From Spirulina subsalsa CS-330 (lineage in GTDB: Bacteria; Cyanobacteriota; Cyanobacteriia; Cyanobacteriales; Spirulinaceae): DNA of 32,531 nucleotides. The stretch covers positions 1 to 32,531 of the forward strand of contig NZ_JAQMTY010000121.1 of NCBI RefSeq assembly GCF_028330765.1. Reading direction: 5' to 3'. The notes under the pieces are model-generated. The model had not been told where the DNA came from, did no database searches, and saw nothing but the letters and a program-made list of their open reading frames with translations. Made by a program: the position numbers and the translations under genes. Below, in pieces: positions 5,038-32,531 of this stretch (positions within the stretch are counted from its first letter, which is position 1; every line of letters begins with the position of its first letter).

Positions 5038-8000
5038 ATGTCGAGTATTTACGACAACATTGAACAGCCCCTGTTGCCAGAATTGCAGGCATATCTGAAA
5101 CAGGCCTATCGGGCGGATTTTTGTGTTGGGTATTTTAACCTGCGGGGGTGGCGACAGCTTGACCGGGAGATCGAGCAGCTTGAGGCAAGACAGGCGATGC
5201 GATCGCTCCCCTCACCCCCCCACACCTGCCGCCTGATCGTGGGGATGCACCGCCTACCGCAGGACGAGCTACGGCACACCCTTGCTCTAGGGGGTTCACC
5301 CCAACGCATGGATCAAGGGCAAGCCCAACGCCTCAAAATCGTGATGGCCGAGGAATTTCGGCGACAACTCACCTATGGTGCGCCCACGATTGCCGATGAG
5401 GAGGGCTTAAAACGCTTGCGATCGCAACTCCTCAGCGGGAAACTCCGGGTTAAACTCTTTCTGCGCCACCCCCTCCACGCCAAGCTGTATCTGATCTATC
5501 GCGACGATCGCGCCACGCCGATCATCGGCTATGTGGGCAGCAGTAACCTGACATTTTCCGGCTTGAAATCCCAAGGGGAACTCAATGTAGAAGTGGTGGA
5601 TCGGGATGATACCCACCGGCTCGAACAATGGTTTAACGATCGCTGGGACGATCGCTTTTGTCTGGACATTACCGCCGAACTGGCCGAGATCATCGATCGC
5701 AGTTGGGCAGGGCGATCGCTCAAGCCCTACTACATCTATCTCAAAATGGCCTATCACCTCTCCCAAGAGGCGCGGGACGGCTTGAGCCAATATCGCGCCC
5801 CCGCTGGGTTTGGCCTGCTGTCCTTCCAAGAGGCAGCGGTACAGGTGGCGGCGAAAAAACTCAATAGTCGGGGCGGCGTGATCATCGGGGATGTGGTGGG
5901 GTTGGGAAAAACCTTGGTGGGAACTGCGATCGCCCATGTTTATCAAGACGACCACGGCACAAGCACGCTGATCATCTGTCCGAAAAATTTAGAAAAAATG
6001 TGGCAGGGCTATGTCGATCGCTATGGCCTAGCGGCCAAAGTGGTTCCGATCAGTCGCGTGGTGCAACTATTGCCCAATGTGCCCGCCCGCTTTCGCCTCG
6101 TCCTCATCGATGAAAGCCACAACCTCCGCAACACCGACGGCAAACGCTACCAAGCGATCAAAGACTACATCGAAACCAGCGGCAGCCGTTGCATTTTGCT
6201 CACCGCCACCCCCTACAACAAAACCTATCTCGATCTGTCGGCTCAGTTGCGGTTATTTCTGCGTTCGGATGCCGATTTGGGCATTAAACCCGAAGCCTAT
6301 GTGCGGAACTTGGGGGGAGAGATGGAGTTTCGGCGCAAACACCCCACCACGCCAGTGCGATCGCTCCTCGCCTTTGAGCACAGTACCGAGCCGGAAGATT
6401 GGCAACAACTCATGAGCCGCTACATGGTGCGGCGTACCCGCAGTTTCATTAAACGAACCTATGGCCGTCAGGACGGAGAACGGTATTATCTAGAGTTTCC
6501 CAATGGGGAACGCTCCTACTTTCCCCGACGGCGACCGCGCACGGTACGCTTCACCATTGGCGACCCCCAAACCGACCCCTACAGCCGCTTGTATGGCGAT
6601 CGCGTCGTTGATGTGATCAATACCCTCCACTTACCCCGCTACGGCCTGGGCCGCTATATCGCCCCCCAGCCCAACCCCGCCGCCAATGACTCCGAAGCCC
6701 AACAACTCGCCAATCTTTCCCACGCCGGCCAGCGGTTGATGGGATTTTGCCGCACCAATTTATTTAAACGGCTCGAAAGTAGCGGCGTGGCCTTTTTGCA
6801 ATCGATCGAGCGGCATTTGCTCAGAAATGAGGTCTATCTCTATGCGATCGCCCATCATCTCCCCCTCCCCATTGGCACACAGGACGCGGCGCTCTTGGAT
6901 GATGACGACGAAGAAGCCGATGGCCTCTTGCCACCCGACGAGCGCGACCCCCAAACCGGCCACACCTTCCGCCAACGGGCAGCGGCGATCCATGACCGCT
7001 ATCATCGCCACTACCGCAGCCGGTTTAAATGGTTGCGGGTGGATCTGTTCGGGCCGCAGTTGGCGGAACATCTGGAGGAGGATGCCCAGGCCCTGAGGGA
7101 GATTTTAGACCTTGCGGGGGATTGGAACCCGGCAGCAGATAGCAAATTAGCGGCCTTGGTGGAATTGCTTCAGATCCGGCATCCAGCGGAAAAGGTGTTG
7201 ATTTTCACCCAATTTGCTGATACGGCACGGTATCTAGGGGAGGCTTTGGCGGCTCAGGGCATTGAGCAGGTGGGGATTGCCACGGGTCACGTTGCCGACC
7301 CCACAACCCTCGCTTGGCGGTTCAGCCCGGTGAGCAATGGCCAATCGATGCCAGCGGCGGAGCAGTTACGGGTGTTGATTGCCACGGATGTCCTCAGTGA
7401 GGGGCAAAACCTCCAAGATGGCGCGATCATTCTCAACTACGATTTACCCTGGGCAATTATTCGCCTCATTCAGCGGGCGGGACGGGTCGATCGCATCGGC
7501 CAGACGGCGACGGAAATTTTGTGCTATTCGTTTTTACCGGCGGACGGGGTGGAGCGGCTGATTAATTTGCGGGGACGATTACGCGATCGCCTCAGTGAGA
7601 ATCAGGATGTGGTGGGAACCGATGAAGCCTTTTTTGAAGATGAGCAGGTGCGCGATGTGTTGCTCAATCTCTACCATGAGCGGTCGGGGGTCTTGGATGA
7701 GGATGAAACCGACGATGGCGAAGTGGATTTAACCTCCGAGGCATTGCAGATATGGCAAAGCGCGATCGCGGCGAATCCGCGCCTCAAGGCGGAAATCGAA
7801 GCCTTGCCCGATGTGGTCTATGCCACGCGCCACCATGAACCCACCGGCCTTGATCCCGAAGGTGTGCTGCTCTATGTTCGCACCCAGAGCGGAACCGATG
7901 CCCTCGCCTGGGTGGATCGCCAAGGCAACAGCGTGACGCAATCCCAAATGCGGATTTTGCGGATGGCGCGGTGCAGCCTAGACACGCCCCCCTTACCCCG

Positions 8001-8400
8001 CGATCGCCAGCACCACGAGCTTGTCACCCAAGGGGGAGCCTTGATCGCCGAGCAGAGTAAAACCGTACCGGGAACCCTCGGCAATCCCCGCAGCGCAGCG
8101 TACCGCACCTATCATCGCCTCATGGCCTATACCCAATCGATGCGGGAAACGATGCCCTTGTTGGCCCAAGGCAAGGAATGGGAACTGTTGGAGCGGGCCA
8201 TTGAAGGGATACATCAACATCCCTTAAAACAGCAGGCGATCGCCCGTCTAAATCGAGAATTAAAATCAGGGATTTCTAATGAACAACTAGCGCAGCTTGT
8301 GCGTTTTTTATGGGAACATAACCTCCTCTGTGTGGTAAATGCCGAAGAACAAAATCAAGGCTCACAGGTGATTTGTTCGTTAGGTTTATTCCCAGGATAG
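5038..8400 (+). CDS. PLD-like nuclease fused to SNF2-type helicase
   Basis: A 1120-residue fusion. Residues about 1-215 are a phospholipase D-like nuclease domain with one HKD motif (H147, K149, then GSSN 167-170 and E181). Residues about 255-830 are a superfamily 2 helicase: Walker A GDVVGLGKT (284-292), DESH (358-361), TATP (389-392), motif IV KVLIFTQFADT (719-729), motif V around ATDVLSEGQNLQ (782-793) and motif VI QRAGRVDRIGQ (812-822). An acidic stretch (about 621-627) lies inside the helicase insertion. The last 290 residues have no recognised domain. Similar fusions are found near restriction and phage-defence genes. A single HKD usually means a dimer. It opens the accessory island; neighbours are toxin-antitoxin genes and a methyltransferase on the same strand. 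The role is probably DNA translocation with cleavage, inferred. Confidence 0.85.
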   Translation: MSSIYDNIEQPLLPELQAYLKQAYRADFCVGYFNLRGWRQLDREIEQLEARQAMRSLPSPPHTCRLIVGMHRLPQDELRHTLALGGSPQRMDQGQAQRLKIVMAEEFRRQLTYGAPTIADEEGLKRLRSQLLSGKLRVKLFLRHPLHAKLYLIYRDDRATPIIGYVGSSNLTFSGLKSQGELNVEVVDRDDTHRLEQWFNDRWDDRFCLDITAELAEIIDRSWAGRSLKPYYIYLKMAYHLSQEARDGLSQYRAPAGFGLLSFQEAAVQVAAKKLNSRGGVIIGDVVGLGKTLVGTAIAHVYQDDHGTSTLIICPKNLEKMWQGYVDRYGLAAKVVPISRVVQLLPNVPARFRLVLIDESHNLRNTDGKRYQAIKDYIETSGSRCILLTATPYNKTYLDLSAQLRLFLRSDADLGIKPEAYVRNLGGEMEFRRKHPTTPVRSLLAFEHSTEPEDWQQLMSRYMVRRTRSFIKRTYGRQDGERYYLEFPNGERSYFPRRRPRTVRFTIGDPQTDPYSRLYGDRVVDVINTLHLPRYGLGRYIAPQPNPAANDSEAQQLANLSHAGQRLMGFCRTNLFKRLESSGVAFLQSIERHLLRNEVYLYAIAHHLPLPIGTQDAALLDDDDEEADGLLPPDERDPQTGHTFRQRAAAIHDRYHRHYRSRFKWLRVDLFGPQLAEHLEEDAQALREILDLAGDWNPAADSKLAALVELLQIRHPAEKVLIFTQFADTARYLGEALAAQGIEQVGIATGHVADPTTLAWRFSPVSNGQSMPAAEQLRVLIATDVLSEGQNLQDGAIILNYDLPWAIIRLIQRAGRVDRIGQTATEILCYSFLPADGVERLINLRGRLRDRLSENQDVVGTDEAFFEDEQVRDVLLNLYHERSGVLDEDETDDGEVDLTSEALQIWQSAIAANPRLKAEIEALPDVVYATRHHEPTGLDPEGVLLYVRTQSGTDALAWVDRQGNSVTQSQMRILRMARCSLDTPPLPRDRQHHELVTQGGALIAEQSKTVPGTLGNPRSAAYRTYHRLMAYTQSMRETMPLLAQGKEWELLERAIEGIHQHPLKQQAIARLNRELKSGISNEQLAQLVRFLWEHNLLCVVNAEEQNQGSQVICSLGLFPG

Positions 8401-8423
8401 GAGCGAGAAATTTTCGCCATCAT

Positions 8424-8690
8424 TTACGGAAAATATTGATAAATTTTCTTGTGGTGCAGTACCCTGATGAAGGAAACAACGCCTTGAGCCACCCTAATCC
8501 CAATTCGGTAGTTGCCGATTCTAATTCGATAGTAGTTTGGTTCACCTTGGAGTTTCTTGATTTGGTTTACGGCTTGAAGATTTTCAGCTTGTTGAATCTG
8601 TACGATCACGTTTTTGATCTTTGATCGGGTTTGTGCATCGTTTATTTTTAGTAAGTCTTTTTAGAAACTTTTTCTGAATTCGAGTTGCAT
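8424..8690 (-). pseudogene. RelE/ParE-family toxin with an in-frame stop
   Basis: The frame starts at ATG 8690-8688 with MQLEFRKSF and meets TAA at 8663-8661. It then continues in the same frame as KDLLKINDAQTRSKIKNVI and on to a typical RelE ending with YYRIRIGNYRIGIR and LHHKKIYQYFP. Family members read Leu or another residue at the stop position, so one base change (TTA to TAA) explains it. A GTG at 8609 could restart a 61-residue fragment lacking the first helix. The gene begins two bases after the stop of its antitoxin, as expected for a pair. A sequencing error cannot be excluded, but the toxin is likely inactive, or made only by readthrough. Confidence 0.75.
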
Positions 8691-8692
8691 GA

Positions 8693-8896
8693 TTATTGTT
8701 CCAGAATTTTAAAAATTTCCTCCTGATTAACCAATTCTGTTTGTTCACCTTCTTTGATGGCGTTAATCATGCCAATGTTTTCAATGACATCGCTTAAAAT
8801 TTCGGAAAACATTTCTTTTTCTTCTTGAATGAGTTCAAAAATAGCTACTTTTAGCAATTCTTTGAGTTTGGTCTCGTCGAGGGTGACAGGATTCAT
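8693..8896 (-). CDS. Probable antitoxin paired with the broken RelE toxin
   Basis: A 67-residue acidic protein read from ATG 8896 (MNPVTLDETKLKELLKVAIF...). It is predicted to be helical. Cyanobacterial RelE-type toxins are often preceded by small proteins with such LKELLKxAIxELIQEE stretches. Its stop is two bases upstream of the relE start, so the pair would be co-translated. A longer frame running up to 9085 passes through repeat DNA and is not preferred. With its toxin interrupted this antitoxin is probably a relic. The antitoxin role is inferred from position and size. Confidence 0.65.
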   Translation of the reverse strand: MNPVTLDETKLKELLKVAIFELIQEEKEMFSEILSDVIENIGMINAIKEGEQTELVNQEEIFKILEQ

Positions 8897-8941
8897 GGTG
8901 AATTGGGATTGAGATAAATTGATTATAACGGCTGTTTTCCT

Positions 8942-9030
8942 CGTTACTTGGCTCTGCCAAGTAATGCCTTCTTGGTGGCTCTGCCTCCATGGGCGGCAGA
9001 GCCGCCTAATGCCCATACCACGGCGGAGCC
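8942..9030. repeat. Compound palindromic repeat next to the hicB remnant
   Basis: Two hairpins in a row: CGTTACTTGG/CCAAGTAATG (8942-8966) and GGCTCTGCC/GGCAGAGCC (8977-9003), followed by a GGCGGAGCC echo. These are typical of short cyanobacterial repetitive elements. The element ends at the point where HicB-like coding begins. The rest of 8897-9386 holds the hicB remnant and a smaller hairpin and no intact gene. Confidence 0.6.
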
Positions 9031-9180
9031 ATGGCACGAGATGGAACGCATAAAGTAAATAGAGTTCTTTCTCAAGGTGATACATTAGAGGAAGCTGTTG
9101 CTAACAGTCAAGAGGCTAAGATTGCTTGGATTGAAACAGCTTGGGAATGTAACGATGAAATTCCATTGCCCAAGACTTGA
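9031..9180 (+). pseudogene. HicB-like antitoxin remnant
   Basis: An open frame of 49 residues whose core, SQGDTLEEAVANSQEAKIAW, followed by IETAWECNDEIPLPK, matches the C-terminal half of HicB-family antitoxins (usual form GDTLEEAxANAxEAxxxWIE). The N-terminal half, normally with xxPDLPGC-type residues, is missing and is replaced by repeat DNA. No HicA toxin is seen on either side. It is probably a decayed HicAB module; the ATG at 9031 lies in the repeat and may not be used. Confidence 0.5.
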
Positions 9181-9280
9181 AGAGGGCGAAAGATTTTGTG
9201 CCTCCGGCAGGCTTACGCCAACACCCCTACGAGATAATTTCATGCTATATCGCAGATTGCGAAAGTATGAGAACGCCACT

Positions 9281-9299
9281 TCCCCCTTTTTAAGGGGGA
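9281..9299. repeat. Short hairpin repeat (CCCCCTTTTTAAGGGGG type)
   Basis: TCCCCCTT and AAGGGGGA pair around a three-base loop, followed by a TTGAGGGGGATC echo. This resembles a short dispersed repeat common in cyanobacteria. The surrounding 9181-9386 shows nothing else that I recognise. Confidence 0.5.
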
Positions 9300-9386
9300 T
9301 TGAGGGGGATCTTTGTACCTCAAGTTTATGAAAGCTGCTATAAATGGGGTTAGAGTATTAAATATTTTTATCGATAGGTGAAGATT

Positions 9387-9617
9387 ATGGCTAAGATTTT
9401 TCTTGAGGTTGATGAAGAGATTAAATCGGCATTTGAACAGGTTAACCCTGAAGTCAAGCAACAGTTAAGCCATTTTTTTCAACTGTTCTTGCAGGATAAG
9501 TTACAGGGAAAAACCTTGACTGATGTAATGGCATCAATTTCAGATAATGCACAACAGCGAGGTTTAACACCGGAAATCCTAGCAGAAATCTTAGCAGATG
9601 ATCATGGAGACGAGTAA
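9387..9617 (+). CDS. Antitoxin of PIN-toxin pair
   Basis: A 76-residue protein that begins MAKIFLEVDEEIKSAFEQV. ATG 9387 is preferred over GTG 9378 because AGGTGA lies six bases upstream. The N-terminal beta strand with following helix looks like a short ribbon-helix-helix-type or similar antitoxin. The C-terminal tail is acidic and likely wraps the toxin. It overlaps the PIN gene by 20 bases, so the two are translationally coupled. The antitoxin role is inferred from this arrangement; the family name is not certain. Confidence 0.75.
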   Translation: MAKIFLEVDEEIKSAFEQVNPEVKQQLSHFFQLFLQDKLQGKTLTDVMASISDNAQQRGLTPEILAEILADDHGDE

Positions 9618-10017
9618 ATTTGTTGTTGACACTAACGTTTTAATCAGTGCTTTATTGTTTAAGTCTTCCGTCCCATTTGAGGCAATCAGTTTAGCAACAA
9701 AACAGGGGGACATCTTATATTCAGAAGCCACATTAATGGAGTTAAAGAAAGTCCTCAATCGTCGCAAATTTGATAAGTACATTTCTGAAGACGAGAGACA
9801 ATTATTCCTGCTTAATTTTGTTGCATCATCAAAGTTGGTGACCATTACAGAACGTATCACTGTTTGTCGAGATCAAAAAGATAACAAGTTTTTAGAGCTA
9901 GCTGTTAGTGGCAAGGCAAAAACCATTGTGACGGGTGATTTGGATTTACTGATCCTCAATCCTTTTCGATCGATTAAAGTTTTGACCCCAGATCAGTTTG
10001 TCGCTGACGTTAAATAA
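9598..10017 (+). CDS. PIN-domain toxin (VapC-like, COG1569 type)
   Basis: A 139-residue PIN ribonuclease. The acidic catalytic residues are all visible: D11 in VVDTNVLISALL, E49 in MELKKVL, D95 in RDQKDNKFLELA and D114/D116 in VTGDLDLL. The family acts as the RNase toxin of type II toxin-antitoxin pairs. The frame is complete, and ATG 9598 lies inside the end of the antitoxin gene; ATG 9604 is an alternative start. Codon use is more AT-rich than the flanking core genes, which fits acquisition by transfer. This is the only toxin-antitoxin pair between the helicase and the methyltransferase that looks intact. Confidence 0.85.
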   Translation: MIMETSKFVVDTNVLISALLFKSSVPFEAISLATKQGDILYSEATLMELKKVLNRRKFDKYISEDERQLFLLNFVASSKLVTITERITVCRDQKDNKFLELAVSGKAKTIVTGDLDLLILNPFRSIKVLTPDQFVADVK

Positions 10018-10081
10018 GGTTACCATTACCCGCGCTGGGGAGTTTTGGGTTAGAGTGGTGGATTGATGGAGGTTTAAGTAG

Positions 10082-13000
10082 ATGTTGAATCGCAGTCGGG
10101 CGCAACGGTATCTAGCAGAGTTTGATTTTGAGGCTCTGTTTATTGAGGAATTGGGTTGGGATGGGGTGGATGGGCCGGGGTTGCCGTTGACGATCGCAGA
10201 GGCAACCGTTGAGGCAGTGCCGATCGCTCAAAAGCGCGGTTTCGTGGTGTATCAGTGCATCGGCGAGGCAATCCCAGCGCGATCGCTCCGGGTGAAACTG
10301 GAGCGTCGCCTGATGGAATACAGTCAGTCCCATGTGTTGGTGTTTGGGGATTTGGGGCGGACGGCGCAGGTGTGGATGTGGTTGAAGCCGGAGGGGGGAA
10401 AGCGGGCCAAGGTGCGATCGCATTCCTATCGGGTGGGTCAGAATGCGGAATCGTTGCTGCAAACGTTAGAGGCGTTAGCGATCGCGTTTGAGGAAGAGGC
10501 GACCTTAACCCATGTGGATGTGGCCCAAAAGGTGAAGCAGGGGTTTGATATTGAGCAGGTCACCAAGCAGTTTTTTCAAGATTTTGAGGGGCTACACGCT
10601 GATTTATGTGCCCAAATTGAGGGAATCGCGGCGGAGGGCGATCGCCGTTGGTATGGGTCGGTGTTATTAAATCGGTTGATGTTTGTGTATTTTTTGCAGC
10701 GTCGCTATTTCTTGGATGGCGGCGATGCGCTGTATTTGCAACATAAATTACAGGCTTGTCAAGCCCAAGGAGCCGCATTTTATTCCTTTTTGCAGGATTT
10801 ATTTTTTGAAGGGTTTGCAAAGCCAGAGTACGAGCGCGATGGTTCCGCTCAGTCCCGATTAGGGAACATTTGTTATTTAAATGGTGGTTTATTTTTAAAG
10901 CATCCGATTGAGGTGCGTTATCCAGATATCACGATCTGTAATGCGGCGTTTAGTGAGGTTTTCACGCTCTTTGCGCGGTATTCTTGGCATTTGGACGATC
11001 GCCCCGATAAAGACCCGCTGGAAATTAACCCGGATGTGTTGGGCTATATTTTTGAAAAATATATTAACCAAAAGGAATTTGGGGCCTATTATACCCGTCC
11101 AGAAATCACGGAATATCTTTGCGATCGCACGATTAAAACGTTAATTCGGGAGCGGCTGGGTTGTGATGAGTTGGTGTGGTCGGGGTTGGATGCGGCGGCT
11201 TGTGAGCGGTTGTTGTGGGATATTTTACCGGGGTTAACGTTGCTCGATCCGGCCTGTGGATCGGGGGCGTTTTTGGTGGCGGCGATGAAGACGTTGATCG
11301 GTGTTTATGAAGGGGTGGTGGAACGGGCTAAGTTATTAGACCCTCATCCCCTAACCCCTTCTCCCAAGGGGGGAGAAGAGGGATCGGAAAGTCCCTCTCC
11401 CTCTTTGGGAGAGGGATTTAGGGTGAGGGCAAGCATTGCCCAATGGTTAGCAGAGGCGGCTAAACATCCATCGTTGGACTATTACGTGAAGAAGCGCATT
11501 ATTACGGACAATCTCTATGGTGTGGACATCATGGAGGAGGCGACGGAAATTGCCAAGTTGCGCTTATTTTTGGCGTTGGTGGCGGCGGCGAAACGGGTGG
11601 AAGATTTGGAGCCGTTGCCGAATATTGATTTTAATATCATGGCGGGCAATTCGTTAATTGGCTTGATTCGGGTGGATGGGGCAGGGTTTGATCAGTTGGG
11701 CGGCGGGCGATCGTTTGGTCACGATCCAACGCAGGGGAATTTGTTGGGGCCGACGGTGATTCAGGGGAATTTATTATCAGGGTTGGCGGCTTCGGAATAT
11801 GAGACAATTTTAAAGGAGAAAAATCAAAGTATTGAGTTATATAAGAAACACGCTTTTCAGGCGGTGGATGAGGAGTTACCCCAGGAAACGCGGCTGTTGC
11901 AGTTGCGGGATCACATTGAGCAGTTAAACAAAAAATCTCAGGGGCGGTTAAATCAGTTGTTGTTGACTGAGTTTAGTCAAAATTTGGGGATTAAGTATGA
12001 GGAGGCGCAGTTAACAGGAAAGGCGAAAAAGCGGCTTTTAGGCATTGCAGATATTGAGGCGTTGAAGCCGTTCCATTGGGGCTATCATTTTGATCGGGTG
12101 TTTGCGCGGGGTGGGTTTGATGCGATTATTGCTAATCCACCGTGGGAGGTTTTCAAGCCGAATGCTAAGGAGTTTTTCGCAAACTATAGCCATTTGGTGA
12201 CGAAGAAAAAGATGGATATCAAGGCGTTTCAAAAGGAAAAGAAAAAACTTTTAAATGATCCAGAAATTGCCCAAGCCTGGAATGATTATCAAAGCCAATT
12301 CCCGTATGTGAGTGCCTATTATCGTTCGTCAGAAGATTATCAAAATCAGATTTCGGTGGTGAATGGTCGAAAGGCGGGGACGGATATTAATCTTTACAAG
12401 TTGTTTTTAGAGCGGTGTTTTAGTCTATTGCGAGAGGGTGGGCGTTGTGGGATCATTTTGCCTACTGGAATTTATACCGATCTTGGTGCAAAGCAGCTTC
12501 GAGAAATGTTGTTTTCTCAATGTAAGTTAGATAACTTGTTTGGTGTTTCTAATGAGCGATTTATTTTTGAGGCGGTTGATCATCGTTTCAAGTTTTGTCT
12601 CATCGATTTTGAAAAGGGTAAAACAACAAGTCAGTTTAATGCTTGTTTCCGTATTGATCCACGAGAAGCAGTAAAGCCCCAAGATCTAGGAACGTTTCTC
12701 AACAATAAAAATCAACACATTGAAATTTCAGTTCCGCTAGTGCGTCGCCTGTCGCCGGATTCGCTGTCAGTGATGGAGTTTAAGCAGCCGATTGATATCA
12801 CCATTGCTGAAAAAATGCTGCAATTCCCGCTCTTGGGTGAAAAAATCCCGAATAAGTGGAATTTAAAGTTAACTCGTGAATTTGATATGACGAATGATAG
12901 TCATCTTTTCAAAACCGAACCCGCGCCGGGACGCTTGCCCCTCTACGAAGGCAAAATGATCCACCAATTCACCCATCAATTCGCCGAGCCGCGCTATTGG

Positions 13001-13612
13001 GTTGATGAACAGGAGGGACGCAAATCAGTTTTAGGAAAAAAAGCTAAAGATATTGGACAAAAACTAGATTATCAAGGCTATCGCTTTGCATATCGAGCTA
13101 TTGCTAGAAACACTGATTCTCGAACACTTATTGGTAGTGTTATTCCTCCCTACTCTTATTGTGGACATTCTCTTAATGTCTCGTGTGATTTTGAATATCC
13201 TGAATATTCTTTGATTATTTGTGCTCTGATGAATAGCTTTTGTTTTGATTCTTGGCTAAGACAACAAGTTTCAGCAAATCTGACAATGTTCTTTCTCTAT
13301 CAAATCCCAGTCCCTCGACTTCAAGAAGGCGATCCGGGGTTTAGTGAGATTGTCGATCGCGCTGCGAAATTGATTTGTACCACTCCCGAATTTGATGACC
13401 TTGCTGCCACAGTTGGCCTCGGTTCCCACCAGAACGGCATCACCAACCCCAGCGATCGCGCCCAACTCCGCGCCGAACTCGACGGCATCATCGCCCACCT
13501 CTACCACCTCACCGAACCCGAATTCACCCACATCCTCAGCACCTTTCCCATCGTCCCCGACGAAACCAAAGACGCTGCATTGAATGCCTATCGTGCGATC
13601 GCCAAGAGCTAG
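10082..13612 (+). CDS. Eco57I-type adenine-specific DNA methyltransferase (type IIG/PglX-like)
   Basis: A 1176-residue gamma-class N6-adenine methyltransferase. S-adenosylmethionine motif I is LDPACGSGAF (388-397) and the catalytic motif IV is NPPW (685-688). The C-terminal part (about 940-1110) carries a TaqI-type specificity domain, marked by PLYEGKMIHQF. The N-terminal 350 residues resemble those of large type IIG enzymes, but I see no clear PD-(D/E)XK nuclease triad, so it may lack its own restriction activity. Residues 420-450 are encoded by an inserted palindromic repeat, kept in frame. Base composition falls in the specificity region and rises again at the end. GGAGG lies about 11 bases before the ATG. 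XisH starts 14 bases after its stop. Confidence 0.88.
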   Translation: MLNRSRAQRYLAEFDFEALFIEELGWDGVDGPGLPLTIAEATVEAVPIAQKRGFVVYQCIGEAIPARSLRVKLERRLMEYSQSHVLVFGDLGRTAQVWMWLKPEGGKRAKVRSHSYRVGQNAESLLQTLEALAIAFEEEATLTHVDVAQKVKQGFDIEQVTKQFFQDFEGLHADLCAQIEGIAAEGDRRWYGSVLLNRLMFVYFLQRRYFLDGGDALYLQHKLQACQAQGAAFYSFLQDLFFEGFAKPEYERDGSAQSRLGNICYLNGGLFLKHPIEVRYPDITICNAAFSEVFTLFARYSWHLDDRPDKDPLEINPDVLGYIFEKYINQKEFGAYYTRPEITEYLCDRTIKTLIRERLGCDELVWSGLDAAACERLLWDILPGLTLLDPACGSGAFLVAAMKTLIGVYEGVVERAKLLDPHPLTPSPKGGEEGSESPSPSLGEGFRVRASIAQWLAEAAKHPSLDYYVKKRIITDNLYGVDIMEEATEIAKLRLFLALVAAAKRVEDLEPLPNIDFNIMAGNSLIGLIRVDGAGFDQLGGGRSFGHDPTQGNLLGPTVIQGNLLSGLAASEYETILKEKNQSIELYKKHAFQAVDEELPQETRLLQLRDHIEQLNKKSQGRLNQLLLTEFSQNLGIKYEEAQLTGKAKKRLLGIADIEALKPFHWGYHFDRVFARGGFDAIIANPPWEVFKPNAKEFFANYSHLVTKKKMDIKAFQKEKKKLLNDPEIAQAWNDYQSQFPYVSAYYRSSEDYQNQISVVNGRKAGTDINLYKLFLERCFSLLREGGRCGIILPTGIYTDLGAKQLREMLFSQCKLDNLFGVSNERFIFEAVDHRFKFCLIDFEKGKTTSQFNACFRIDPREAVKPQDLGTFLNNKNQHIEISVPLVRRLSPDSLSVMEFKQPIDITIAEKMLQFPLLGEKIPNKWNLKLTREFDMTNDSHLFKTEPAPGRLPLYEGKMIHQFTHQFAEPRYWVDEQEGRKSVLGKKAKDIGQKLDYQGYRFAYRAIARNTDSRTLIGSVIPPYSYCGHSLNVSCDFEYPEYSLIICALMNSFCFDSWLRQQVSANLTMFFLYQIPVPRLQEGDPGFSEIVDRAAKLICTTPEFDDLAATVGLGSHQNGITNPSDRAQLRAELDGIIAHLYHLTEPEFTHILSTFPIVPDETKDAALNAYRAIAKS
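11341..11429. repeat. Palindromic repeat inserted in frame in the methyltransferase gene
   Basis: Begins CCCTCATCCCCTAACCCC and ends TTAGGGTGAGGG, with two internal hairpins of CTTCTCCC/GGGAGAAG and CCCTCTCC/GGAGAGGG type. The same family occurs at 32413-32487. Here it is translated as a Pro/Ser/Gly-rich stretch (HPLTPSPKGGEEG...) between motifs I and IV. Confidence 0.85.
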
Positions 13613-13625
13613 GAGATTCCATCAA

Positions 13626-14039
13626 ATGGCTAAGGATTTATTCCATAATGTCGTTAAAACTGCCCTAATCAAAGACGGATGGATCATCACCGACGATCCT
13701 CTATTTCTGAACGTTGGCGGTGTAGACCTTTTCGTTGATTTGGGTGCAGAGAAATTACTCGCGGCTGAACGAGATGGTGACAAAATTGCGATCGAAATCA
13801 AGAGCTTTCTGAGTGCCTCAAGCCTTGCTGACTTTCATCTTGCGATCGGACAATTCATGAACTACCGTGTTGCTCTTCAGTCCGCTGATCCTGAACGGCA
13901 GTTATTTCTTGCCATTCCAGACACAGCTTACAATACATTTTTTCAAAAAGAATTTCCACTCATGGTGATTAAGCAGTATCAGCTTAGATTTTTTGTTTAT
14001 GACACTGAAAATGAGGTGATTACCCTATGGAAACTCTAG
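13626..14039 (+). CDS. xisH: XisH-family protein (PD-(D/E)XK nuclease-like)
   Basis: A 137-residue protein matching XisH, named as a factor controlling excision of the fdxN element in Anabaena but widespread without that element. The start is the ATG after AGGAG, giving MAKDLFHNVVKTALIKDGW. Residues of an endonuclease-like core are visible: H7, D38 (VDLGAE), and E57-I-K59 (IAIEIKSF), the last being the (D/E)XK element. It follows the methyltransferase by 13 bases and overlaps xisI by 13 bases, so the three are likely one operon. No fdxN-type element or recombinase is in the window. A nuclease role is inferred from the motif. Confidence 0.88.
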   Translation: MAKDLFHNVVKTALIKDGWIITDDPLFLNVGGVDLFVDLGAEKLLAAERDGDKIAIEIKSFLSASSLADFHLAIGQFMNYRVALQSADPERQLFLAIPDTAYNTFFQKEFPLMVIKQYQLRFFVYDTENEVITLWKL

Positions 14040-14371
14040 CAAAACGGCAAGCCTACCGAACCATCATCAAGCAACTGTTAGAACACTATGCGACCTATAA
14101 ACCCTCCTATGGTGATATTGAAATTCAAACCGTGTTTGATGCGGAACATGATCACTACCAAGTAGTAGCGATCGGGTGGCACAAAAAAAACAGAATCTAT
14201 AGCTGTTCGATTCATTTGGATATTAAAGACGAGAAAATTTGGATTCAGGTCAATGATACTGAGTTGGATATTGCCCAAAAACTTTTTGAAAAAGGGATAC
14301 CGAAAGACGATATTGTCATTGGCTTTCACCCCCCGCACTTGCGCCAACACTCAGGTTACGAAATTTCTTAA
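14027..14371 (+). CDS. xisI: XisI-family protein
   Basis: A 114-residue partner of XisH. Typical family features are visible: Y-RxxIxxLLxxYA near the N-terminus, FDxEHDHYQVVxIGW in the middle, and the C-terminal GIPKxDIVxGFHPPxxR. It overlaps xisH by 13 bases. The molecular role is not established; the constant pairing suggests XisI binds or restrains XisH. It is full length. Confidence 0.9.
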   Translation: METLAKRQAYRTIIKQLLEHYATYKPSYGDIEIQTVFDAEHDHYQVVAIGWHKKNRIYSCSIHLDIKDEKIWIQVNDTELDIAQKLFEKGIPKDDIVIGFHPPHLRQHSGYEIS

Positions 14372-14386
14372 CCCTTACGTTCAATC

Positions 14387-14677
14387 ATGAACCTTAAAGA
14401 AAAATTGCAACAAAAACGCGCAGACATCCTCAACCTAGCCATCAAATATGGAGCATACAATATCCGCATCTTCGGCTCTGTCGCCAGAGGTGAAGCTGAT
14501 GCCGAGAGTGATATTGATTTTTTAGTTGAACTGGAACAAGGATGCAGCTTACTTGATTTAGGCGGCTTGCTCATGGAATTACAAGATCTGCTCGCATGTC
14601 CTGTCGATATTGTCACCGAGCGAGGACTCCGCAGCAGAATTCGTCAACACGTTCTCAATGAAGCGATTCCTCTATGA
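14387..14677 (+). CDS. MNT-type minimal nucleotidyltransferase (antitoxin of HEPN/MNT pair)
   Basis: A 96-residue protein with the nucleotidyltransferase signature [20 protein letters not shown]30-S31 and metal-binding D42 and D44. In HEPN/MNT modules this protein AMPylates and silences the HEPN ribonuclease. It starts 15 bases after xisI and its stop overlaps the start of the HEPN remnant in an ATGA, typical of translational coupling. It is complete, yet its toxin is cut short, so it may be an orphan. Confidence 0.85.
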
Positions 14678-14846: not shown

Positions 14847-14941
14847 AACTTTTTTGCCCAAAATCCAGCATCCACTGGAACCCACCCCGTATGATTGAGA
14901 GAAACACGCGCAAAACAGCACAGTGATTAGGGTGGTGAGTG

Positions 14942-16084
14942 ATGGCCTTTAAAATACTTTGTCTTGATGGGGGAGGGATGCGCGGCGTGCTGTCCGCCCA
15001 GCTTTTAGCACTGATCGAAGCAGAACTCCTCAAGCAAACCGGCAAGCGCATTCATAATTATTTTGACCTGATTGCTGGAACCTCCACCGGGGCAATCCTC
15101 GCGGCGGGTCTCGCCCTTGGCACCAGCAGCGAACAGATGATGCAGCTTTATCTGCAAAAAGGGCGGCGGATTTTTCCCTATCAGGGCTATTGGGGCTATT
15201 TCGCGCCCCAACGCTTGCCCTTAGTCCTGCAACATGGCCCGTCGGCTCCCAAATTTTCCCACGCGGGGCTAGAATCCGTCCTCAAAGAACAATATGGCCA
15301 GCGCACCCTCGCGGATCTGCAACGCCAGACCCCTAAATTATTAATCACCGCCTACGACACGATGCTGCGCCACCCCGTGATTTTTAAAAGTTGGGAAGCG
15401 GCCTGGTATTCCCAGAGCAAAGTATGGGAGGCGGTGATTTGTTCGGCTTCGGCTCCGACCTTTTTCCCGTCCTATCCGCTTCAGGCTAATGGGTATAGTT
15501 GCTCGTTAATTGATGGAGGGGTGGGGGCGAACAATCCGAGCACCTGCGCGATCGTGGCGGCGTTAAAGTTGGGCTATGCCCTCAAAGATTTGCGGATTTT
15601 ATCGATTGGGACGGGGGAAAGTACGACAGGGTATCCCTACAAGGATACGAAGCATTGGGGGTTGGCGCAGTGGGGCAAACGGATTGCTGATGTGCTGATG
15701 GATGCGCCCCAAGATGTGATGGAAGAGACGGCGCAGCAGGTGGTGACCTTGGGCGATCGCTACCCTAACCACTACATCCGCCTTCAGCCGAAACTCACCG
15801 CCGACAGTCTGCACCAATGGCTCGACCCCGAACACCTCGCCCAACTTCGCCGCGATTTCAAGGGCAAACGCCTCCAAGTCCGCGAAGATATCGATGATGC
15901 GAGTCCGGAAAATATGCAAATTTTACAGGCCCTCGCCACGGGCTATTTTCACAATCAAACCCTCCGCATCCCGACTTCGTACCACCAAACCCGCGAAATC
16001 ACGATCACCGAAGCCCTGCAAGCCTGGGTGAGTAGTGCGGTGCTGTCAGAGCGGGATGGGTTTGCAATGGAGGATTGGCGATGA
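14942..16084 (+). CDS. Patatin-like phospholipase
   Basis: A 380-residue patatin-fold lipid acyl hydrolase. The oxyanion motif DGGGMRG (9-15), nucleophile motif GTSTG (46-50, S48) and catalytic DGG (D191) are all present, so it is probably active on phospholipids or galactolipids. ATG 14942 follows AGGGTGG; a GTG one codon earlier is an alternative. There is no signal peptide, so it is cytoplasmic or peripheral. The stop overlaps the start of the L,D-transpeptidase gene (ATGA). Patatins also serve as CBASS effectors, but no cyclase (CD-NTase) gene is seen here, so a housekeeping or envelope role is as likely. Confidence 0.88.
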   Translation: MAFKILCLDGGGMRGVLSAQLLALIEAELLKQTGKRIHNYFDLIAGTSTGAILAAGLALGTSSEQMMQLYLQKGRRIFPYQGYWGYFAPQRLPLVLQHGPSAPKFSHAGLESVLKEQYGQRTLADLQRQTPKLLITAYDTMLRHPVIFKSWEAAWYSQSKVWEAVICSASAPTFFPSYPLQANGYSCSLIDGGVGANNPSTCAIVAALKLGYALKDLRILSIGTGESTTGYPYKDTKHWGLAQWGKRIADVLMDAPQDVMEETAQQVVTLGDRYPNHYIRLQPKLTADSLHQWLDPEHLAQLRRDFKGKRLQVREDIDDASPENMQILQALATGYFHNQTLRIPTSYHQTREITITEALQAWVSSAVLSERDGFAMEDWR

Positions 16085-31342: not shown

Positions 31343-32389
31343 GTGCAAACCACTCCTTCCCGTGACGAACTGGCGGCGGCTCTCGCTGTTCCCGCTGATT
31401 TTGATTTTCAACTGCCCGATCCTGACGATGATCAGATCCATGACCATGAATTTACGCGGCAATTGGATGAGGTGTGGAATATCTGCGAGCGGTTTGATCT
31501 GCAAACGGATATTTGGCGGGGTCGGGTGCTGCGAGCGGTGCGCGATCGCGAAAAACGCGGCGGCGAAGGTCGGGGCACAGGCTTTTTGAATTGGCTCAAA
31601 CAGCGAGAAATCACCAAAAGCCAAGCCTACACCCTGATCCAACTGGCCAACAGTGCCGACACGCTCCTCGCGGATGGTCAACTTGACCCCACCTCGATCA
31701 ACCGCTTCAGCAAAAACGCCTTTATGGAAACCGCCAAGGCTGACCCGGAAGTGCAGCGGATGGTGAGCGAGGCGGCGGCCGGGGGCGATCGCATCACCCG
31801 TCGCGAAGTCAAACAACTCACCGACGAATGGACGGCCGTGAGTTCCGACCTCCTCCCCGACGAAATCAAAGCCAAAGCCGCCGACGGCAGCATCGCCCCG
31901 CGCCACATCGCCCCCCTCGTCCGGGAAATGGAAAAACTCCCCGATGCTCACCTGAAAACCATTCAAGTGGAGGCGGCGAACTCCCCCGACCTCGACATGG
32001 TGAAAACCCTGACCACGGAGGCCAAAAACCTCTCAAAATACCTCGACGCTGCCGCCCAAGTGCAAACCCTGCGCCGCGCCGATATCGACCTGGAAATGGC
32101 CCTCGAAGAAGCCCTCCGCCTCGACTGTCTCAACACCACCGCCGACCTCGTTAAACAAGCCACCACCCTAGAGCAAACCGTAGGCAAGCTCTACACCACC
32201 TGGCGACGCTTGGGCAGCTTGGCCGATCGCCTCTACGTGGACACGGGCGCGAGCAATCCTCACCTGCGATCGCTCCTCAACAGCCTCCATGTCCTCACCC
32301 AGGATGTGATCGAGGTGCAGCTTGATGAATCCGGCGAAAAACAGGTGCGCCTCCGCATCCTCAATGACCCCGCTGCAACGGATTCCTAG
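31343..32389 (+). CDS. Conserved hypothetical protein with ParB-like helix-turn-helix region
   Basis: A 348-residue acidic, helical protein. The start is a GTG at 31343. Residues about 80-165 (NWLKQREITKSQAYTLIQLA, then DPTSINRFSKNAFMETAKAD and ITRREVKQLTDEW) look like the DNA-binding part of ParB/KorB-type proteins, but the N-terminal CTPase motif GxRR is not seen. The C-terminal half (about 190-300) is predicted coiled coil or helix bundle. A DNA-binding role is therefore likely but unproven. It is divergent from comM and is followed directly by an inverted-repeat element. Confidence 0.65.
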   Translation: MQTTPSRDELAAALAVPADFDFQLPDPDDDQIHDHEFTRQLDEVWNICERFDLQTDIWRGRVLRAVRDREKRGGEGRGTGFLNWLKQREITKSQAYTLIQLANSADTLLADGQLDPTSINRFSKNAFMETAKADPEVQRMVSEAAAGGDRITRREVKQLTDEWTAVSSDLLPDEIKAKAADGSIAPRHIAPLVREMEKLPDAHLKTIQVEAANSPDLDMVKTLTTEAKNLSKYLDAAAQVQTLRRADIDLEMALEEALRLDCLNTTADLVKQATTLEQTVGKLYTTWRRLGSLADRLYVDTGASNPHLRSLLNSLHVLTQDVIEVQLDESGEKQVRLRILNDPAATDS

Positions 32390-32391
32390 GG

Positions 32392-32531
32392 GGTGCATCC
32401 CAGTTGTGCAACCCCTCACCCAACCCTCTCCCGCAGGAGAGGGCTTTTGGCTCCCTTCTCCTGCGGGAGAAGGGCTGGGGATGAGGGTTCTACCTGGCGA
32501 GCAATATGAATCTGCAAAAGTGGGATGCACC
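32392..32531. mobile_element. MITE-like element with GGTGCATCCCA inverted ends (right end at window edge)
   Basis: The first 19 bases (32392-32410) match the complement of 32513-32531 at 17 of 19 positions. The element carries no gene. A palindromic repeat of the CCCTCA...TGAGGG family (32413-32487) is nested inside. The element may extend one or more bases past the window. Confidence 0.75.
32413..32487. repeat. Palindromic repeat of the CCCTCA...TGAGGG family
   Basis: Contains hairpins CCCTCTCC/GGAGAGGG and CCTTCTCC/GGAGAAGG, like the copy inside the methyltransferase gene at 11341-11429. Confidence 0.85.

Follow-up and report, generated by a model that had tools for sequence, protein, structure and literature searches.

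A conserved pair of PLD–SNF2 helicase and adenine methyltransferase genes in Spirulina subsalsa CS-330, a candidate ATP-dependent restriction-modification system

Four co-oriented genes follow one another in contig NZ_JAQMTY010000121.1 of the cyanobacterium Spirulina subsalsa CS-330 (assembly GCF_028330765.1), from which we analysed a stretch of 32,531 nucleotides, hereafter the window. An initial annotation had read them as one restriction-like unit, made of a phospholipase D (PLD) nuclease fused to an SNF2 helicase, an Eco57I-type methyltransferase, XisH and XisI. Do these four genes form a single system and, if so, is it a known one? Pfam searches recovered the four genes with the domains proposed for them, all on the forward strand, at 5038–8400, 10082–13612, about 13626–14039 and 14027–14371. 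Two of the four genes do behave as a unit, and more strongly than the sequence alone could tell: the helicase and the methyltransferase are a conserved co-oriented pair that travels together through many bacterial phyla, while XisH and XisI do not share this constancy. The pair probably constitutes a compact ATP-dependent restriction-modification (R-M) system of two core genes, in which the methyltransferase would bring specificity and protection and the PLD–SNF2 protein would translocate and cut.

Linkage of the helicase and methyltransferase genes

We used an alignment of 13 helicases to scan genomes, one for each species; this gave at least 546 relatives, of which the best 80 loci were kept (the named-genome loci). 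These show 52–85% identity over the best segment and comprise 36 cyanobacterial and 44 other loci, from about 17 phyla judging by record titles. A methyltransferase, accepted when its match exceeded 60 bits, adjoins the helicase in 72 of the 80 loci and is always on its strand; it follows the helicase in 70 of them and precedes it in 2. The 8 loci that lack it all have 2.2 kb or less of sequence to the right. When the helicase is followed by at least 3 kb of sequence (room, in what follows), the pair is present in every locus (55/55, a count that includes L174 as well as L109, in which the methyltransferase gene is truncated). As an internal control, all open reading frames (ORFs) of the 80 loci were clustered: the helicase family was found in 80 loci, the methyltransferase in 69 and a DprA-like family in 23, with any other family in 6 at most. 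A second set came from genomes related to that of the window: 149 were searched and 32 loci fetched, six genomes having loci common to both sets. The pair occurs in 22 of the 24 relatives' loci with room, broken or truncated copies included (L067, L078, L089 and L091), and its order is reversed in L071. Independent occurrence, which would have counted against the initial annotation, is not what the two sets show for helicase and methyltransferase, and the neighbourhood association is found for them in both.

The spacing of the pair differs between groups, with a median gap of 44.5 bp in 42 non-cyanobacterial loci versus 559.5 bp in 28 cyanobacterial ones, and some of the latter carry PIN or PemK toxin, Uma2, DUF29 or YhcG genes in the gap. 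A third gene usually accompanies the pair outside cyanobacteria. Of the 29 non-cyanobacterial loci that extend 6.5 kb or more to the right, 22 have a DprA-like gene downstream on the same strand, versus 0 of 20 such cyanobacterial loci; the family was assigned by a Pfam DNA_processg_A match on one tested member. The gene overlaps the methyltransferase stop codon or lies within 5 bp of it in 8 of 23 loci; in others further genes intervene, and its distance from the helicase reaches about 9 kb. DprA binds single-stranded DNA, and the DprA-like protein could perhaps be an accessory that handles single strands or DNA ends. Two non-cyanobacterial loci without it (L125 and L137) have another family, of 190–196 amino acids, directly after the methyltransferase.

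The two proteins and a proposed division of labour

The first core component (5038..8400, forward strand) is a PLD nuclease–SNF2/RapA-like helicase fusion of 1120 amino acids that matches Pfam PLDc_2, RE_NgoFVII, SNF2-rel_dom and Helicase_C. It carries a PLD HxK motif (H147/K149), GSSN at 167–170, a Walker A motif from G288 to K291 and DESH at 358–361. Residues H147, K149, GSSN, G288, G290, K291, D358, E359 and S360 are conserved in 31 of 31 helicases; residue 292 is T in 26 of them and S in 5, and H361 is kept in 29. The AlphaFold2 model (predicted local distance difference test score, pLDDT, 72.1) has PDB matches to SNF2 ATPases and RapA. No PLD nuclease was among the 50 fold matches listed, in which only residues 247–898 were spanned by at least one fifth of the matches and the PLD domain was barely probed. 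Likewise, no modified-base reader (SRA) was matched by Pfam in the helicase, the C-terminal part of which was given no fold search of its own. The best PADLOC match is C3a139, 'HKD+Snf2', a model that fits the window helicase weakly (135 bits) and matches all 31 helicases; the name C3a139 was not found in print in our literature search. NCBIfam NF042964 (anti-phage protein, PLD_Helicase) also matches weakly, at 146 bits of the 1100 needed. These Pfam, PADLOC and NCBIfam scans used single-protein models, as distinct from the PADLOC/DefenseFinder system rules for pairs. A sister clade of PLD–SNF2 helicases (L093, L094, L097, L098, L099 and L100) includes two that fit C3a139 better, at 227 and 229 bits; in 5 of these 6 loci a methyltransferase of the same profile precedes the helicase, in reversed order, once with a DUF559 nuclease gene between the two.

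The second core component (10082..13612, forward strand) is an N6-adenine DNA methyltransferase of the Eco57I type, 1176 amino acids long, with a Pfam Eco57I methylase match and the motifs DPACGSGAF at 389 and NPPW at 685. Over 20 gene pairs, identity is 55–57% in the core (residues 151–540) versus 25–26% in residues 701–1176, a low value that is expected of a diversifying specificity region. The model matches the folds of BrxX, of the Type ISP enzymes LlaGI/LlaBIII and of MmeI. Its residues 160–1156 align to MmeI 161–890, so that the N-terminal domain (1–156) occupies the position of the MmeI nuclease. In residues 1–155 of 33 homologues, no conserved PD-(D/E)XK triad was found (no invariant D-(D/E)xK), another kind of nuclease being possible. 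In the fold search only residues 159–1148 were spanned by at least one fifth of the matches, and the N terminus was barely probed. The protein thus shares the methyltransferase architecture of Type IIG/IIL enzymes (MmeI, PADLOC REase_MTase_IIG) and differs from them by an N-terminal domain without this conserved triad and by a constant helicase–nuclease neighbour. An in-frame low-complexity segment at residues ~421–450 resembles a cyanobacterial interspersed repeat; similar letters are found at 9240–9461 and 32168–32530, both on the reverse strand, and similar segments inside the L090 helicase.

The pair is conserved, its motifs are intact, its main folds are predicted and the hallmarks of DISARM (defence island system associated with restriction-modification) and of systems related to BREX (bacteriophage exclusion) are absent. 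From this we infer methylation, translocation and cutting, a division of labour between the two proteins and an anti-phage role. The variable C-terminal half of the methyltransferase would read a short site, at which the enzyme would methylate an adenine of host DNA. Where this mark is lacking, it would recruit or license the PLD–SNF2 protein, which may dimerise through its PLD domains, by analogy with SauUSI and BfiI; the dimer would move along DNA at the expense of ATP and then cut. Because the N-terminal domain of the methyltransferase seems to have no active site, cutting would have moved to the partner in trans. The genes for XisH, XisI, PIN, PemK, Uma2, DUF29 and YhcG that lie in the gap or close to it would be passengers.

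Several observations weigh against this two-gene R-M system. Firstly, the linkage is imperfect at its edges. The L174 match counted among the 55 covers 56 C-terminal residues only, and two relatives' loci have room and no methyltransferase: L092, which holds a helicase fragment, and L079, in which the helicase is intact and keeps all 27 key residues checked. The genome that carries L079 (G137, listed as 100% complete, in 510 contigs) yielded no close methyltransferase, the best match having an E value of 9.9e-4, although only 4 of 10 first-look candidates were scored and a copy may have been missed. This single genome speaks for the model insofar as it points to a nuclease that does no harm on its own; loss of expression would also explain the case. 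Two genes of the Uma2 cluster precede the helicase in L079. A helicase kept without a close methyltransferase would also fit a SauUSI-like type IV nuclease, dependent on modification, that has an epigenetic methyltransferase as its neighbour. According to the sections of PMC7913695 that deal with it, SauUSI is a working fusion of a PLD nuclease and a superfamily 2 (SF2) motor, in the same order as here, and dimerises through PLD. As a type IV enzyme, however, SauUSI consists of one protein, carries an SRA reader and lacks a methyltransferase. With no Pfam modified-base reader in the helicase, and with a constant methyltransferase partner, unlike SauUSI, we regard this explanation as very improbable.

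Secondly, the N-terminal domain of the methyltransferase may be less inert than we propose. Its predicted order of elements, helix-strand-strand-strand-helix-strand, is like that of a restriction endonuclease (REase), a likeness seen at the level of predicted secondary structure. Four N-terminal segments compared with Pfam at E≤1 weakly matched winged-helix families (0.015 and 0.77) and Tae4 (0.17), and no nuclease. The PADLOC model PDLC03628, 'REase_MTase_IIG', matches the window methyltransferase at 513.9 bits and that of L158 at 1162 bits over its full length. Both the strand order and this model fit a conventional type IIG/IIL enzyme, able to methylate and to cut unaided, the PLD–SNF2 protein being a separate defence gene that favours the same neighbourhood. 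Co-oriented neighbours in all 55 loci go far beyond a shared neighbourhood, however, and no PD-(D/E)XK triad is conserved across the 33 sequences, so we judge this unlikely. Finally, the pair is present on plasmid pSYSX of Synechocystis PCC 6803 (see below), a strain in which, as a passage of PMC6560206 states, no active R-M system is expressed.

Comparison with described defence systems

Close in composition are the BREX-related (BR) Type 2 systems, in part also called Hma, for which the relevant parts of PMC12839542 describe an HKD/PLD domain N-terminal to a Swi2/Snf2 helicase, an adenine methyltransferase in the operon and a proposed R-M logic, as in our pair. By the same account, a DUF499 ATPase belongs to BR systems, and those of Type 2 include a DUF3780 gene as well. 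DUF499 (PF04465) has no match in the window genome (G000); 17 of 35 genomes match, and no such match comes within 10 kb of a pair helicase where the two share a contig, though contig ends hide some neighbourhoods. DUF3780 (PF12635) was found in 5 of 292 genomes and not in G000, and the five DUF3780 loci gave no methyltransferase-profile match and a weak helicase match in 4. A hunt for helicases at DUF499 loci by motif regular expression found one, and profile searches were then used instead. The four Type-2 BR helicases found are 903–908 amino acids long and score 78–94 bits against the pair-helicase profile, mostly on the motor core. In the tree, 21 pair helicases form one clade (support 99/96) and the 4 Type-2 BR helicases another (100/100), with a warning from the program that long branches meet.

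The initial annotation had also remarked on the lack of the DUF1998 protein of DISARM, and this proved correct: the MZB family PF09369, which we take to be the DUF1998 family, has no match in G000. Among 35 genomes, 12 match it (11 over the cut-off); here too no match shares a 10-kb neighbourhood with a pair helicase of its contig, contig ends again hiding some. From what PMC12458937 gives of them, DISARM class I and ARMADA resemble our pair in combining a Snf2/RapA-like helicase with a PglX-like methyltransferase but have a YprA-family helicase with a DUF1998 module, whereas here PLD is fused to SNF2. The DrmD and DrmMI models do match the window proteins, the NCBIfam DrmD match being weak (147 bits of 610 needed). 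Hence, although parts are shared, the locus is not a DISARM, ARMADA or BREX-related/Hma system as described, because the hallmark partners (DUF1998, DUF499 and DUF3780) are missing; these candidates were rejected, the helicase clade being separate from that of Type-2 BR as well. A looser relationship might be a BREX-like or DISARM-like block, in which host DNA is methylated, the SNF2 motor stalls phage replication or packaging and PLD is an accessory. The shared parts notwithstanding, we give this little credence, with the PLD HxK motif kept in 31 of 31 helicases and the partners that define BREX-related and DISARM systems absent. CglI and NgoAVII, as far as PMC7913695 covers them, likewise combine a PLD nuclease, an SF2 ATPase and a methyltransferase, but their PLD and ATPase are separate proteins, with PLD fused to a B3 reader.

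The initial annotation had suggested a variant not yet described. No named system was found, and the literature searched, with most subscription journals outside its coverage, held no recognisable description of the pair as a system. It is conceivable, and we put it forward tentatively with a little less than even confidence, that the pair represents a widespread undescribed class of two-component ATP-dependent R-M systems, in which a type IIL-like methyltransferase with a dead nuclease domain targets a PLD–SNF2 nuclease, with the DprA-like third gene in most non-cyanobacterial loci. If so, annotation has split in two a conserved R-M class whose members occur across about 17 phyla (counted from record titles), on plasmids and in the model strain Synechocystis PCC 6803, and hides it behind the labels 'type IIG enzyme' or 'DNA methyltransferase' on one side and 'helicase-related protein' on the other. 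Some predicted 'type IIG restriction enzymes' would then be methyltransferases unable to cut alone, and the pair would offer a clean case of nuclease function shifting from cis to trans. It would also connect enzymes of the MmeI type with the BREX and DISARM methyltransferases, and make pSYSX a tractable system for the laboratory.

Passenger genes and plasmid copies

XisH and XisI fare differently from the pair. XisH (13626..14039, forward strand; Pfam XisH, 1.7e-55) opens as an ORF at 13584 and probably starts near 13626, because the XisH domain begins at ORF residue 16; XisI (14027..14371, forward strand; Pfam XisI, 2.8e-43) follows. The tight spacing of methyltransferase, XisH and XisI reported by the initial annotation was confirmed, with 1.7 kb separating helicase and methyltransferase. 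The AT-richer island in which it had placed all four genes proved narrower: G+C is 40–51% per kb across ~8.0–15 kb, and 56–58% in the helicase gene, much as in the flanks. Near the pair, XisH/XisI occur in one of the 80 named-genome loci (L104, Microcystis), where both directly follow the methyltransferase ORF and precede an MntA-like gene, as in the window. Identity to the window is 76% for the L104 helicase versus 48% and 36% for its XisH/XisI copies. Among the relatives' 32 loci, XisI is found in one (L069, after the methyltransferase, with no XisH detected) and XisH in none; L096, which has helicase pieces only, has both nearby. XisH was found in 122 of the 149 related genomes, with up to 26 per genome. 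Within the clade of the window, defined by helicases at least 60% identical, nine other distinct loci continue for more than 4 kb beyond the methyltransferase match; XisI is present in 2 of them, and XisH too in one of these; XisH/XisI are absent from 7 of the 9, among them L062, the same locus in the genus-mate genome G002, which shares the flanking patatin and L,D-transpeptidase genes and has neither XisHI nor the PIN pair. We therefore rejected XisH/XisI as constant components, clade-level recurrence remaining; the two genes probably fill a cargo slot. That all four genes function as one unit, at least in the clade of the window, XisH adding a further nuclease and XisI regulating, would accord with their tight spacing, the order conserved in L104, XisI in L069 and its recurrence in the clade; set against their absence from nearly all named-genome loci and from most of the clade, the poor identity of the L104 copies and the abundance of XisH elsewhere in the genomes, it is scarcely credible.

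Other passengers lie in the helicase–methyltransferase gap of the window. A PIN-domain toxin (9598..10017, forward strand; Pfam PIN_3, 1.2e-21; TIGR00305) is preceded by an ORF at 9378..9617 on the same strand, a probable antitoxin partner by its position, which overlaps the PIN gene and has no Pfam match. A RelB-like antitoxin ORF (8693..9085, reverse strand; Pfam RelB_like_antitoxin, 3.7e-16) had no tblastn match in the 80 named-genome loci.

Copies of the helicase are found on plasmids: among 72,556 plasmid records, 498 show some match to it, which in 22 extends over 80% or more of its length. Of 50,697 phage records, 8 have a helicase match, none covering 80%. An annotated DNA methyltransferase lies downstream of the helicase on pSYSX of Synechocystis PCC 6803, on pPRO1 of Pelobacter propionicus and on a 17.7-kb Rhodococcus plasmid. 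That of pSYSX is related to the window protein (37% identity over 73% of it), and those of pPRO1 and Rhodococcus are known by annotation alone. The pSYSX pair consists of SGL_RS01585, the helicase gene, and SGL_RS01600, the methyltransferase gene, and a VapC gene occupies the same gap. The methyltransferase M.Ssp6803IV (GA6mAGGC), possibly that of the pair, is placed on pSYSX in an excerpt of PMC6604393 that names no gene for it, and the portion of PMC6560206 on methyltransferase mutants includes a mutant of another gene, sll8009. On pSYSX (L181, 17291–19545), the pair is followed on the other strand by ThiF, E2/UBC and multiubiquitin-domain genes, a ubiquitin-like cluster of defence type.

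Two further genes lie beyond XisI in the window. A small nucleotidyltransferase of the MntA type (14387–14677) scores 41.8 bits (cut-off 60) and is also a PADLOC candidate, PDC-S09; in L104 and L113, relatives of it lie in the neighbourhood of the pair. A patatin-like phospholipase (14939–16084) comes near the lipase model NF041079 of CBASS (cyclic-oligonucleotide-based anti-phage signalling system), at 181.9 bits (cut-off 200), and has a 98% identical copy at the same locus of G002.

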